IMG/VR virus record: IMGVR_UViG_3300028883_000127
Span: 1 to 25,748 of that record
Reading direction: 5' to 3' (one strand)
DNA length: 25,748 nt
From: a virus
Shown here: positions 4,321 to 23,445 of the stretch, piece by piece
How the letters are laid out: each line of letters begins with the position of its first letter
How positions within the stretch are numbered: the stretch's first letter is position 1
The notes under the pieces: model-generated
The model's input: only the letters and a program-made list of their open reading frames with translations
What the model was told of the DNA's origin: nothing
The model's database searches: none
Program-made: the position numbers and the translations under genes

Positions 4321-4643
4321 AAGGCTTGTGCTTTTTTGAAGTCTGCCCAGGCTTGCTTGCGGCCTTTGTACAAGCCCTTTGCTTTCGCTATGAGTAGGGC
4401 ATGTGCGAGGGCTTGGAGCATGGCATCCTCAGGGTACGCTCCGGCAGCGTTTGCCGAAGCCTCTCCGCTGATGTAGTCGCCCTGCCTGCCGTAGCGGGCA
4501 ATCGGCGTCTGTTCTACGCCTGTACAGAAGTGCAGATCAACTGGCTTGCCGTTAACGAGAATGGTCTTGAGGTACACGCATTTCTCGCAGTAGTGCTCAT
4601 GCACAGGGCCTGGAACCTGTTCGTAGCCTGCGTCGCTAGTCAT
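4317..4643 (-). CDS. hypothetical protein with a Cys pair (108 aa)
   Basis: Contains HEHYCEKCVYLK near residue 20 and HFCTGV near residue 40, which could make a metal site. The C-terminal half is helical and Ala/Lys-rich (LAHALLIAKAKGLYKGRKQAWADFKKAQAL). No family recognised. Start and stop both overlap neighbours as ATGA, so it belongs to a coupled run covering 4042-5519. Confidence 0.75.
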   Translation of the reverse strand: MTSDAGYEQVPGPVHEHYCEKCVYLKTILVNGKPVDLHFCTGVEQTPIARYGRQGDYISGEASANAAGAYPEDAMLQALAHALLIAKAKGLYKGRKQAWADFKKAQAL

Positions 4644-4936
4644 TGCATGGCTCCGATCTGTTCGGTGAGCAAACCCCAGAAGGCATTGAAGTCCTCATTT
4701 GGGTACGTCTCAACGAGCCAGCGTGACGCCTCTGCCTTCAGGTCCAACGTGTCCCATGCGTCAGGCTCTAGGCTACAGTCCTCAGCCTGCACAGCGTGCT
4801 CCACCATAAACTCGATGGCGTGGAGCAGCAAGCGTGTGCTGTTGCCCTGCTCCTCAGGTGTACCAACGAACGATATGTCGTTCTTGATGAGGTTCGCGCA
4901 AATGTTGCGCAACGTTAGCACTTGTTCTTTGTTCAT
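4640..4936 (-). CDS. hypothetical protein (98 aa)
   Basis: MNKEQVLTLRNICANLIKNDISF, predominantly helical and acidic, ending AFWGLLTEQIGAMQ. Preceded by AGGAGAACGCT at good spacing and overlapping the stop of the upstream gene (ATGA). No recognised family. Confidence 0.75.
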   Translation of the reverse strand: MNKEQVLTLRNICANLIKNDISFVGTPEEQGNSTRLLLHAIEFMVEHAVQAEDCSLEPDAWDTLDLKAEASRWLVETYPNEDFNAFWGLLTEQIGAMQ

Positions 4937-5175
4937 AGCGTTCTCCTTTTCTTGACAATCTTCACCTCGGTTAGGTCGAACGAGCCAAGCGCGAAGGCCT
5001 TGGTCCAGGTGAGGCCGCTACGTTCCTTGTAGCGCGTGTTTGCGAAGGCCTTGTCGCGCGTCTGGTAGTACGCCTCAACTGCGGCGGCGTGATTGCTAAG
5101 GCGCGTTGTTGCGAGCAGCGTACCACGATGGTTGATCCAGGTGATCTCGTAGAACGTGCGCGGTGCTTCGGTCAT
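4933..5175 (-). CDS. hypothetical protein (80 aa)
   Basis: Compact alpha/beta-looking protein, MTEAPRTFYEITWINHRG to KIVKKRRTL. Its first codons ATG ACC GAA GC lie inside the right arm of the palindrome at 5164-5190. Its ATG overlaps the TGA of the upstream gene, so the palindrome spans the junction of the two genes. The similar YRITCLDEYG opening of the upstream protein (both resemble xYxITxxxxxG) hints at a distant paralogy, which is weak. Confidence 0.75.
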   Translation of the reverse strand: MTEAPRTFYEITWINHRGTLLATTRLSNHAAAVEAYYQTRDKAFANTRYKERSGLTWTKAFALGSFDLTEVKIVKKRRTL

Positions 5176-5190
5176 AATTTAACCGAAGCA
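5164..5190. repeat. dispersed palindrome, copy 2 (spans a gene junction)
   Basis: Perfect 9-bp outer arms TGCTTCGGT and ACCGAAGCA around an A/T-rich centre. In the leftward sense it encodes the last residues ASVKL and the stop of the gene at 5172-5519, and contains the ATG and first codons of the gene at 4933-5175. Confidence 0.85.
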
Positions 5191-5519
5191 TTTGCGCGAC
5201 GTCTGCGCAGCTCTTTGCCCAGGATGTTGCTAAGCACCGTCTCAACGTAGGCACGGCCGAAGCGCTCTATCGCATCGTCGAGGAGGCTTGTGGTCTCGCT
5301 TGGCAGATCGGGTTCCCACGTTAAACGGACCTCGGTGACTTCGTCGTAGATGGGCATGCCCAGCGCTACGAGGTCGTTGTTGGCGTCGAGGCGAATGTTG
5401 TCTTCGAGACCAGCTGCTTCGACCTCAGCCTTGAACATGTCGATGGCCTTGGCGTAGCTTGGTTCTGTGATCTCGTTGTGGAGTGCGCCGTACTCGTCGA
5501 GGCAAGTGATGCGGTACAT
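5172..5519 (-). CDS. hypothetical protein (115 aa)
   Basis: MYRITCLDEYGALHNEI, alpha/beta-looking, C-terminal helix FGRAYVETVLSNILGKELRRRRA then ASVKL. The final codons and the stop are supplied by the palindrome at 5164-5190. The ribosome site is GAAAGGACGACTA before ATG, the first (in this direction of reading) of the GAAAGGACRA-type leaders. No family recognised. Confidence 0.75.
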   Translation of the reverse strand: MYRITCLDEYGALHNEITEPSYAKAIDMFKAEVEAAGLEDNIRLDANNDLVALGMPIYDEVTEVRLTWEPDLPSETTSLLDDAIERFGRAYVETVLSNILGKELRRRRANASVKL

Positions 5520-7203: not shown

Positions 7204-7284
7204 CAATTATTTGCGTTAGCACGGCAATTGTGCTATGTGCGTGTTTGGCGGGTTTCATGTAGGTACCCTGGGATTATTTGGCGT

Positions 7285-7414
7285 GTTTGACCGAAGGAGC
7301 TGTATTTGATAGAGTGTTATTGTGCGTAGAATTCTCTATCTATTATAAGATTTTTTTTTTAACAAAAACGACAACTCTACGGAGAATCAGAACCAATCGC
7401 GCTTCGGTCAAACG
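7285..7414. repeat. split arms of the dispersed palindrome
   Basis: TTTGACCGAAGG (left, 7286-7297) and CTTCGGTCAAACG (right, about 7402-7414) are the palindrome arms in reversed order, about 105 bases apart. Flanking bases also match (GGCG before TTTGACC, with two extra bases; CGCC after GGTCAAA). Transcribed, they would close a very large hairpin. The interior includes the T10 run. Confidence 0.6.
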
Positions 7415-7579
7415 CCCCAAAAAACGCCACCGTACATACATGAAACACGCCCTACATGCCCTACATGCACCTTACGGGCGTAGCCCGAGGTCTTAAGTCT
7501 GCGCGGCGTTGCGGTGTCCAGCGGGCACCTATGAACTCGCAACCATATGCGGCGACAACGTGCATAGGCGTCGCAACGG

Positions 7580-7606
7580 TGCTTCGGTCAAAATATGGAC
7601 GAAGCA
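7580..7606. repeat. dispersed palindrome, copy 3
   Basis: TGCTTCGGTC arm and a slightly changed right arm GGACGAAGCA around AAAATAT. It lies in a non-coding region, not directly before a gene, flanked by direct repeats of GTGCATAGG and AACCATATGCGG. Confidence 0.75.
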
Positions 7607-7667: not shown

Positions 7668-7695
7668 AAAAAACCCCGATCCGAAGACCGGGGTT
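7668..7695 (-). terminator. Rho-independent terminator after the 7704-8171 gene
   Basis: Stem AACCCCG(A)TC..GA(C)CGGGGTT with a CGAA-type loop at 7672-7695, followed in the leftward direction by six T. It lies 8 bases past the stop of the gene at 7704-8171. Confidence 0.85.
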
Positions 7696-7703
7696 TGTTG
7701 TTG

Positions 7704-8171
7704 TTAGTCGTTGCTTGCCGCAACGATTGCTTCCATGATCGTTTCGTCGATGCCCAGCTTTTCCGCTGCGGCTTTCAACGTGACCCGTTCAGCTTTCACA
7801 TCGGCAACGAGCTCCGACATGATTTGCTTTTCGGACTTCGTTGAGACGGTCCGCGAGTCCGGTTTGACGGTCCGGACGTCTTCGGCTGGTGCACGTTCAT
7901 TGTTCCGATACTTCTGTTGCACCGCGATGATGTTGCGCGCCAGGACTTCATCTATCAAATCATTGATAGACCATCCGTCAAACGTCACTATGTGCTTCGT
8001 TTTGACGGATTCGGTTAACACGTTTTTACCGTCTGGACCAACGACAAACTTTCCATCATCGCCGCGCATTTTCCAACGCGTGCCGGATTCCTTCACCCGT
8101 TCAACGTTGGGCAACGTTGCGTTCATGTCGATGGTCGTTGCATTGGTCGTCTCGTTTGATTTGGCGTTCAT
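7704..8171 (-). CDS. hypothetical protein with HTH-like C-terminus (155 aa)
   Basis: MNAKSNETTNATTIDMNATLPNV, then KMRGDDGKFVVGPDGKNV (beta hairpin), IVTFDGWSINDLIDEVLARNIIAVQQKYR and a C-terminal stretch TLKAAAEKLGIDETIMEAIV that resembles a helix-turn-helix. ATG 8171 follows GAAAGGGCGAAAC, a variant of the conserved leader. It is the gene next to the TGCAAC array and has its own terminator, so a DNA-binding or replication/control role acting on that array is an attractive but untested idea. Confidence 0.75.
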   Translation of the reverse strand: MNAKSNETTNATTIDMNATLPNVERVKESGTRWKMRGDDGKFVVGPDGKNVLTESVKTKHIVTFDGWSINDLIDEVLARNIIAVQQKYRNNERAPAEDVRTVKPDSRTVSTKSEKQIMSELVADVKAERVTLKAAAEKLGIDETIMEAIVAASND

Positions 8172-8208: not shown

Positions 8209-8556
8209 GTTGCATGGTCGTGCATGTTTACCATGTTTACGTTGCACCATGACACCATACGGCATACATGCAACCCATGCAACGTTTGCTAATTGTCAAA
8301 TAACGTTTGCCCGGTTTTGTGGGGCACGGGAGTATTACAAACGTGCAACGTGAAATGCAACAACATTCGACACATGCAACGTGCAATGATGCAACGGTGT
8401 GACAAATATCACATTCACAAATACGGGGCGTGTTGTTGGCACAATCTTTGGCACGGTTGCAACATCCAATGTATGCAACGTGCAATGGTTCAAACGTGCA
8501 ACGCATGGTACGTGCCAACGTGCAACGTTTGCATGGTGCAACGTTTTATAGTTGCA
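8209..8556. repeat. iteron-like array of TGCAAC(GT)
   Basis: TGCAAC or its complement GTTGCA occurs at about 8209, 8241, 8269, 8278, 8344, 8356, 8375, 8390, 8456 (as palindromic GTTGCAAC), 8474, 8497, 8521, 8537 and 8551; most copies extend to TGCAACGT. Related GTGCAATG and AACGTTTGC words interleave. Copies are in both orientations with irregular spacing, so it is not a CRISPR array. Such clusters are typical of initiator or regulator binding sites. Confidence 0.8.
8398..8413. promoter_or_regulatory. TGTGA-N6-TCACA palindrome (CRP/FNR-family-like site)
   Basis: TGTGACAAATATCACA matches both half-sites of the CRP consensus exactly. It lies in the middle of the TGCAAC array. No promoter with a suitable position was found, so binding by a host CRP-family protein is a guess. 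Confidence 0.4.
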
Positions 8557-8710: not shown

Positions 8711-8738
8711 GCGCGTGCTTCGTTGCGCGTGCTTCGTT
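8711..8738. repeat. tandem 14-bp duplication ending in a palindrome arm
   Basis: GCGCGTGCTTCGTT occurs twice head to tail (8711-8724, 8725-8738). The second copy supplies the left arm of palindrome copy 4. Confidence 0.75.
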
Positions 8739-8755
8739 CAAAATTTGACCGAAGC
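8731..8755. repeat. dispersed palindrome, copy 4
   Basis: GCTTCGTTCAAA and TTTGACCGAAGC with one mismatch in the left arm. It lies 118 bases before the first rightward gene, downstream of the GC-rich segment. Confidence 0.8.
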
Positions 8756-8873: not shown

Positions 8874-9404
8874 ATGCCAACCATCGGAAGACACCCGCTT
8901 CCGCCTAATGAGCGGAAGTTTGAGCTCGGACATCTGTACGCAGTACACAAAGAAATCCTGCGCCGTCTTGTCCTTGGGCAGAAGCCGAAAGATATTGCGG
9001 AGGCCCTGGGCGTGACGCGCACAGTCGTTACGTATACGCAGAACAGCGAGTTGGGGCGACAGCACATGCGTACGCTTGAAGCAGCGCGTGATGCACAGAC
9101 CGCAGACGTCAGCCGCGCGATTTTAGAAACTGCGCCAGAGTCCTTATCCATCTTGCAGGACCTTCAGCGAGACGAAGATACGCCAAGAGCCTTGCGTGCC
9201 CGCGTAGCCTTTGGAATCCTGGATCGTGGAGGTTATGGGCCTACGAAGAAAAGCATCATCGACGATAAGCGTAGCGGGACAGGTGGTATCTTTTCTCAGA
9301 AGGACATCGAGGCCTTGAAGCAGCGTGCATTGGAGCAGGGCAAGATTGTTAGCGTCAGCAACGCTCAGGTCGACGCGGTCGATGCGGAGGTCGTAGATGG
9401 CTAA
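8874..9404 (+). CDS. small terminase subunit-like HTH protein (176 aa)
   Basis: Residues 26-60 (EILRRLVLGQKPKDIAEALG then VTRTVVTY) form a clear helix-turn-helix. The middle is helical (ILETAPESLSILQDL) and the tail carries GGIFSQKDIEALKQRALEQ. Length, the N-terminal HTH, helical core and position as first gene of the packaging/structural block suggest the DNA-recognition subunit of terminase, although the large subunit is 6 kb downstream. An HTH regulator is the alternative. GGAGGAAGT precedes the ATG. Its end overlaps the endolysin start by 8 bases. Confidence 0.7.
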   Translation: MPTIGRHPLPPNERKFELGHLYAVHKEILRRLVLGQKPKDIAEALGVTRTVVTYTQNSELGRQHMRTLEAARDAQTADVSRAILETAPESLSILQDLQRDEDTPRALRARVAFGILDRGGYGPTKKSIIDDKRSGTGGIFSQKDIEALKQRALEQGKIVSVSNAQVDAVDAEVVDG

Positions 9405-14783: not shown

Positions 14784-15029
14784 ATGCATATCTTAGTCTT
14801 CGGCCGTACGCACGAAGTCCACTGGGACAATCGTAACAAACTGGTTAACGCTTCTGGCAAGGTCTTCGGAGAACTAGCTGACGGAGTCCGCCTCCCACAG
14901 GCGCAGCCTGCACCTGAGGACCCGATTCGTCGCCTCCTTAGCGAGGTCGCTCGACCCGAGGAGAAGTGGCTTAAGCGAGACATTCTGGCTTGGGTTGATC
15001 GCTTGTACGATGCTTCGGTCAAAATTTAA
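14784..15029 (+). CDS. hypothetical protein ending within the palindrome (81 aa)
   Basis: MHILVFGRTHEVHWDNRNKL, a beta-start protein with a helical C-terminus (LKRDILAWVDRLYDASVKI). The last codons ASVKI and the TAA lie inside palindrome copy 5 (15011-15037). The gene at 5172-5519 ends ASVKL in the same way. GGAGAGTTAGT precedes the ATG. Function unknown. Confidence 0.7.
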   Translation: MHILVFGRTHEVHWDNRNKLVNASGKVFGELADGVRLPQAQPAPEDPIRRLLSEVARPEEKWLKRDILAWVDRLYDASVKI

Positions 15030-15037
15030 CCAAAGCA
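15011..15037. repeat. dispersed palindrome, copy 5 (encodes the end of a gene)
   Basis: TGCTTCGGTCAAA and TTTAACCAAAGCA. It contains the stop codon of the 14784-15029 gene and precedes the ATG at 15052 by 14 bases. Confidence 0.85.
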
Positions 15038-17372: not shown

Positions 17373-17399
17373 TGCTTCGGTCAAAATTTGAACGCAGGA
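17373..17399. repeat. dispersed palindrome, copy 6 (degenerate right arm)
   Basis: A perfect left arm GTGCTTCGGTCAAA, but the right arm reads TTTGAACGCAGG; the AGGA there serves as the ribosome site of the portal gene. It lies between terminase and portal. Confidence 0.75.
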
Positions 17400-19603: not shown

Positions 19604-20668
19604 ATGGCTAAGGACAGGATGGCCGAAGAAGTTGCTGACATTCTGAATGTGGATGAGCTGCCGGACAAGGACCCTCGGGACAAGGAAACGACCGAGGACA
19701 GCATCGACGACGACTACGCGGAGTTGCACGACATCGACGAAGACGACGATGAAGATGAAGACGACGCAGAGGACGCAGAGGACGATGATGCTGAGGATGA
19801 GGATGACGACGAAGATGAGGACGATGATGAAGACGACGAGGACGAGCCAGACTATTCTGAGATGTCCCGTAAGGAGCTCATCAAACTGATCAAGGACGAA
19901 GACCTCGACATCGACTACGCTGATCTGGAGACCGACGAGATTCGGGAGGCCCTGGCAGACGTAGAGCCTAATGAGCAGGGTGCGCAGATCAAGCAGCTCC
20001 TTGCCCAGATGCAGGCGGCTGGCTACGGTACGCAGCAGAAGCCGCAGCAGGACCAGCCTGCGGGCGTTGAGCAGATGGTGCAGAAGTACCTGAAGGACGC
20101 TGGTGTGCTGAAGGATAAGCCTGCAGAGAAGGAGAAGCCTGAGTTTAAGGACCAGGACTTTTTGAAGGACGAAGATTTCGATCTGGTGACACAGGACCCG
20201 AAGGCGCTGAACAAGTTGCTGAACAAGGTGGCGAAGCAAGCTTACGAGGCTGCTGGACCCACCCAGGACCCTGTGAATGTGCAGGAGCTGACGCAGAACA
20301 TCAGTCAGCAGGTGCAGAGTCAGATCTTGGCGGTGCAGGCTGCGAATGAGTTCTATCGGGCCAACGCAGACCTCGCACAGTTTAAGCCTGTTATTGGCTA
20401 CTTGGTTGGTGAGTACGTGAAGGAAAACCCCAACGATGCCAACGACTATATGAAGGTTCTCAACGAAGTTGGTGTGAGAGCCAGGAAGATGTTAGGCTTG
20501 CAGAAGAAGGGACGGAAGTCCTCTGCCTCTGGTGACCGTAAGCCTCGACGTAAAACAAAAAAGCCCTCCTTCCCGAGGACACCGAAAAGCGGCAGGGCTA
20601 GGAAACGCGGGAAAAAGATGTCTGATACACAGAAAGACATCTTGGACACATTGGGAATTAAAACTTAA
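19604..20668 (+). CDS. capsid scaffold protein with a possible -1 frameshift site (354 aa)
   Basis: Scaffold proteins guide prohead assembly and leave before packaging. Support: position between portal and capsid, low complexity, Glu/Asp-rich N-terminus (residues 43-81 almost all Asp/Glu), Gln-rich middle, basic C-terminal region (about 305-340) and a final MSDTQKDILDTLGIKT. At codons AAA AAG (20558-20563) it carries the heptamer A AAA AAG in the correct phase, as in dnaX. A -1 slip would replace the tail with ALLPEDTEKRQG and stop at TAG 20599-20601. The ATG at 19604 follows CAGGAGGACTAGG. Confidence 0.8.
   Translation: MAKDRMAEEVADILNVDELPDKDPRDKETTEDSIDDDYAELHDIDEDDDEDEDDAEDAEDDDAEDEDDDEDEDDDEDDEDEPDYSEMSRKELIKLIKDEDLDIDYADLETDEIREALADVEPNEQGAQIKQLLAQMQAAGYGTQQKPQQDQPAGVEQMVQKYLKDAGVLKDKPAEKEKPEFKDQDFLKDEDFDLVTQDPKALNKLLNKVAKQAYEAAGPTQDPVNVQELTQNISQQVQSQILAVQAANEFYRANADLAQFKPVIGYLVGEYVKENPNDANDYMKVLNEVGVRARKMLGLQKKGRKSSASGDRKPRRKTKKPSFPRTPKSGRARKRGKKMSDTQKDILDTLGIKT
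20557..20598 (+). promoter_or_regulatory. candidate -1 frameshift signal
   Basis: Slippery heptamer A AAA AAG (20557-20563), in frame. Just downstream, AGCCCT and AGGGCT arms (20562-20567, 20594-20599) could form a stem enclosing CCT..AGG and CCG-AAAAG-CGG hairpins. The stem starts inside the heptamer, closer than the usual 5-8 base spacing, so the inner hairpins would be the more plausible stimulators. Confidence 0.45.
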
Positions 20669-23398: not shown

Positions 23399-23422
23399 GG
23401 AGCAGGCCTTCGGGTCTGCTCC
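23399..23422 (+). terminator. hairpin after the capsid gene (terminator or mRNA stabiliser)
   Basis: GGAGCAGGCC-TTCG-GGTCTGCTCC: a 10-bp stem with a UUCG tetraloop, 20 bases after the capsid stop. No T-run follows directly; the palindrome copy 7 starts within its last two bases. It may slow transcription or protect the capsid mRNA. Confidence 0.6.
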
Positions 23423-23445
23423 TTCGGTCAAATTTTAACCGAAGG
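23421..23445. repeat. dispersed palindrome, copy 7
   Basis: CCTTCGGTCAAA and TTTAACCGAAGG around the centre. The right arm includes AAGGA, the ribosome site of the gene at 23454 (GTG start). It is stacked directly on the UUCG hairpin. Confidence 0.85.

Follow-up and report, generated by a model that had tools for sequence, protein, structure and literature searches.

What does a dense array of short TGCAAC repeats do in a phage genome, at the very point where transcription changes direction? We examined this question in an entire IMG/VR record, a linear fragment of 25,748 bases (hereafter, the window). The original prediction described the array as iteron-like and as an initiator- or regulator-binding region, possibly the origin of replication. 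We compared the locus with those of related phages and searched the window for additional elements that could serve either role.

The TGCAAC array and its genomic setting

Small genes in the window run leftward on the minus strand up to position 8171, and from position 8874 onward genes run rightward on the plus strand, placing the array (8209–8556) at a switch of transcription direction, as predicted. The first rightward gene is terS, encoding the terminase small subunit (8874–9404, plus strand; phrog_2538, E 4e-5). It is followed by genes encoding a GH108 endolysin (from 9397), a large laminin-G-domain protein (from 10370), TerL (from 15840), and an SU10-type portal protein (from 17388). The gene at 19604–20668 contains an acidic coding repeat (GAAGACGACGATGATGAT-like) at positions 19735–19845.

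No close DNA match to the window was found among phage records. A TerL profile search recovered 310 relatives, and we fetched the best 80 of them. Desulfofustis phage LS06-2018-MD01 (L009; TerL identity of 39%), the best annotated relative, originates from a study that predicts a strictly lytic lifestyle for its phages (PMC10370329). Closer relatives are L005 (73% identity in TerL and 61% in TerS) and L003, and the more distant L006 (TerS identity of 40%), L007, and L008 share the layout of the window. A scan of genome contigs detected seven relatives in metagenome-assembled genome bins, which are no trustworthy guide to the host.

Overall, the window holds 29 copies of TGCAAC, 15 of which start between 8209 and 8551 (11 on the plus strand and four on the minus strand), in agreement with the predicted cluster of about fifteen copies per 350 bases in both orientations. 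Seven of these 15 are extended to TGCAACGT. Markov models of orders 1–3 trained on the window yielded a mean of 0.3–0.4 and a maximum of three copies per 404 bp, and an order-1 model trained on the region itself yielded a mean of 1.7 and a maximum of eight. Similarly, the clustering of the window’s own TGCAAC copies had a binomial P of 5e-20. No other 6-mer clusters to this size in the window, L003, or L005–L009, with the relatives reaching at most nine per 404 bp, and TGCAAC itself reached at most six per 350 bp in approximately 100 loci that were not chosen for this feature. No relative keeps the array at the density of the window, and its conservation therefore cannot be used as functional evidence.

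Within the array, the TGCAAC core is exact and the flanks are variable. The copies are irregularly spaced (7, 8, 9, 12, 16, 19, 24, 26, 32, 66, and 68), no period reached R above 0.45, and a tandem-repeat finder returned only a weak match (period 7, 66% matches). The predicted repeats are thus genuine, whereas the label “iteron-like” fails in its strict sense of equal spacing because the distances are irregular. A 39-nt module at 8361–8399 recurs at 8460–8498, 99 bp apart and 77% identical. The copies are spread over every frame of both strands, and the stretch is therefore non-coding; a coding origin of the repeats was rejected, as all frames are used and none offers a plausible protein. The GC content of the array is 37–53% in 60-bp windows, and an AT core is absent.

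Searches with array fragments matched unrelated phages only, some of which likewise harbor TGCAAC clusters (L224, L217, and L227). Among these phages, which were chosen by the motif, L224 and L217 exceed the window’s count, with 23 and 17 copies, respectively, and have no terS, portal, capsid, or 155-aa gene in common with the window. In the L224 contig, a 12-bp repeat, TGCAACGNGGGA, occurs approximately 50 times at 4501–5290, in blocks with a conserved AT-rich unit between them. The dense cluster of L217 (486–850) consists of AACGTTGCAACGTT-type repeats, and in that of L227 (2790–2995) a perfect dyad, GTTGCATTTTGCAAC, is repeated.

An origin-like element to the left of the array

Approximately 1 kb to the left of the array, we detected an element at 7239–7459 comprising two inverted arms (7239–7296 and 7402–7459; 58 nt, 79% complementary) around an AT-rich core of 105 nt that contains a T10 tract. 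The lowest GC content, about 23%, is found here, at 7310–7369, and the region of the right arm includes 2.7 copies of a 9-bp tandem repeat, ACATGCCCT (7445–7468). A systematic search within 2.8 kb upstream of terS placed the lowest-GC segment between such arms in 17 of 29 relatives (a set that includes the window), whereas none of 104 downstream stretches from the same loci and none of 150 from unrelated phages showed this design. The arrangement was located at 7501–7715 in L005, 7571–8169 in L006, 2676–3114 in L007, 5046–5302 in L008, and 43054–43434 in L009; in L007 and L008 the arms contain tandem repeats with a 9-bp period. The element at 7239–7459 has the conserved, repeat-flanked AT-rich core expected of an origin. 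It is a more likely site of replication initiation than the array, and we propose the arms-plus-core arrangement as a candidate origin for the whole phage group.

The array itself has neither the direct repeats of ~17–22 bp at near-helical regular spacing nor the adjacent AT-rich unwinding region of an iteron-type origin. Cumulative GC skew, suggested as a check of the predicted origin, stays flat over the array, running from 77 to 82. The window minimum lies at 4968, and the element at 7239–7459 shows a small local hump of the kind that inverted arms alone produce. For L009, a relative whose genome is complete, the cumulative skew minimum (41467) lies in the divergent region; it is not origin-specific, since the coding-strand switch falls there too. 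Skew is therefore uninformative on the origin here. Taken together, the spacing, AT content, and skew of the array and the better element elsewhere removed it as the first-choice origin and weakened this part of the original prediction.

A putative operator cluster and its alternatives

The array adjoins, on its left, a 155-aa gene (7704–8171, minus strand) with a terminator-like stem-loop directly downstream (7671–7696, minus strand). A small gene is conserved at this position in at least 13 relatives, and the 155-aa protein appears to belong to an uncharacterized family. The membership of the window’s protein relies on synteny and a weak profile score (E about 1; about 0.5 for L005), and the window and L005 proteins share their position, a hydrophobic strand, a helix, and a Q-x(3)-R motif. 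In the Desulfofustis phage, an unannotated ORF at 42356–42817 (plus strand) matches the family profile. AlphaFold predicted two strands plus helices for the family, with a pLDDT of 67 for the window’s protein and of 80 for a relative that aligned better, and Foldseek searches against PDB and BFVD returned no match with E below 0.001. The HTH-like segment previously proposed for this protein was modeled as a helical C-terminus; no recognized DNA-binding fold was found, and DNA binding was not supported.

Inside the array we identified a perfect CRP-type dyad, TGTGACAAATATCACA (8398–8413); TGTGAN6TCACA occurs nowhere else in the window without mismatch. The other loci tested yielded a single further exact match, at 8354 in L006, again within the divergent region, and the nearest relative, L005, carries a dyad with one mismatch in its divergent region (8556), with three TGCAAC copies around it. 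The motif was spotted post hoc, which somewhat weakens its statistics. In L006, the −10 end of a strong promoter (TTGACA-17-TATATT, an 11/12 match) lies 73.5 bp from the dyad center, and the dyad is therefore ~80 bp upstream of the expected start. Position −81 is a known dyad position at CRP-activated promoters, and the L006 arrangement is close to it. We claim this spacing for L006 alone, because in a systematic promoter scan the window and L005 reached only weak 8/12 matches; a shared ~73-bp spacing in all three phages was accordingly dropped. A sigma-54 site was rejected by eye owing to its wrong spacing.

These observations are best read as a lineage-specific cluster of cis-regulatory operators controlling divergent transcription, an explanation to which we assign about even chances; it retains the regulator half of the predicted initiator- or regulator-binding role. 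The reading draws on the dense two-orientation cluster, far above expectation, on its position across the gap between divergent genes, where promoters must lie, and on the perfect CRP-type dyad, which recurs in L006 and nearly so in L005. Furthermore, the origin-like element of the group lies elsewhere, freeing the array from that role, and the array changes rapidly among relatives, as the operators of a fast-evolving regulator would. Mechanistically, the leftward block of small genes, probably early, diverges at the array from the rightward packaging and structural block. A DNA-binding protein, probably encoded by the phage, would recognize TGCAAC half-sites and could coat the ~350 bp between the blocks, repressing or timing one or both of them. 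The CRP-type dyad might add an input from a host CRP-family activator, if the host has CRP. Several observations argue against an operator cluster: no sigma-70 promoter above threshold resides in the array, and the candidate suggested by analogy is a weak one (8/12); judging from the structural models, the adjacent 155-aa protein is without a recognized DNA-binding fold; and a cooperative operator would not usually have so many single half-sites at irregular distances.

Alternatively, the array could provide the initiator-binding repeats of an origin, either alone or together with the AT-rich element ~1 kb away. The presence of several short repeats between genes, where the coding strand switches, would suit this role, as would the skew minimum within the divergent region of L009, and origins with separated initiator sites exist. 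We nevertheless consider it unlikely: the conserved arms-plus-core element fits better, the 9-bp-period repeats of L007 and L008 lie in the arms of that element, the array combines irregular spacing with no AT core and no skew change, and the L009 minimum also coincides with the coding-strand switch. The proximity of terS, which starts ~320 bp downstream, raises another option, a packaging-initiation region (pac/cos-type) bound by TerS. TerS often binds within or next to its own gene, and this TerS family has an HTH-like N-terminal segment, as judged by eye. However, TerS is 61% identical between the window and L005 and the array is hardly kept, the window record has no mapped genome end, and the number of repeats is far above that of known pac or cosB sites, leaving packaging a very doubtful explanation.

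The array might also have no function, arising by slippage or duplication of a 7–9 bp word in unconstrained intergenic DNA. Its density is specific to this phage, the 39-nt module is duplicated, and several spacings are near 8 or its multiples, all compatible with such a history. Yet TGCAAC is kept exact where its flanks differ, the sites occur in both orientations, tandem repetition is barely detectable, and a perfect CRP-type dyad is embedded among the copies; we find a functionless by-product rather improbable.

Dispersed palindromes and comparison with known systems

Beyond the array, a 23-bp palindrome, CTTCGGTCAAAATTTGACCGAAG and its variants, occurs seven times in the window and not at all in the reversed control. 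The copies are located at 2300–2322 (CTTCGGTTAAAATTTGACCGAAG), 5166–5188, 7582–7604 (left of the 155-aa gene), 8732–8754 (between the array and terS), 15013–15035 (17 nt before a start codon), 17375–17397 (directly in front of the portal gene, 9 nt before a start codon), and 23422–23444 (10 nt before a start codon). The copies at 7582 and 8732 bracket the 155-aa gene and the array. The window’s palindrome had no match in IMG/VR. The palindrome comes in a version specific to each phage: the outer ends approximate CTWYG...CRWAG, and the inner letters differ. L006 has nine copies, L009 seven, L207 eleven, and L180 and L185 six each; dispersed versions also occur in L159 and L008. Shuffled sequences gave palindrome families of only one or two. 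ORFs occupy 78–89% of the sequence in eight phages, yet 47 of their 55 copies lie between genes, and many copies end 4–17 nt ahead of start codons. This pattern, several intergenic copies across the genome, is the one expected of dispersed operators.

More speculatively, each genome of the group may arrange its own control sequences in a fixed layout, the array being this phage’s fast-diverging operator set. The constant parts of such a tentative layout would be the inverted-arm/AT-core origin, the fast-evolving small protein, and the phage-specific 23-bp palindromes before start codons. If matching phage regulators read the palindromes and the array, these apparently lytic phages would possess strain-specific, immunity-like regulation. 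Our analysis shifts the probable origin of a widespread group of uncultured phages from the array to a conserved element, and flags two candidate regulatory layers, the CRP-type dyad and the dispersed palindromes, which may give access to the timing of early and late genes and to a possible influence of the host’s carbon state (through cAMP-CRP) on infection.

Iteron-type origins, such as those bound by plasmid Rep or PLE RepA (PMC7145576), resemble the array in having many short intergenic repeats. The array differs from them in lacking regular spacing, an adjacent AT-rich core, and a recognized initiator gene nearby, with origin-like features residing 1 kb away. CRP-dependent control regions share with the array a perfect TGTGAN6TCACA, and with L006 a dyad ~80 bp before the expected start, whereas dense TGCAAC half-sites do not belong to CRP regions; the host may lack CRP. 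The 23-bp palindromes, rather than the array, resemble the 17-bp dispersed palindromes of Cluster O mycobacteriophages, whose function is unknown, in being spread across the genome and mostly intergenic (PMC4351075). The stoperators of Cluster A are likewise genome-dispersed palindromes, comparable with the 23-bp dyads that bracket the array and not with the array itself. The conserved inverted repeats of phiC31 are also dispersed across the genome and show the same resemblance to the palindromes and not to the array. Unlike these known dispersed palindromes, those described here are 23 bp long and combine near-constant outer ends with phage-specific inner letters, and, in contrast to those of Cluster O (PMC4351075), they often lie 4–17 nt ahead of start codons.
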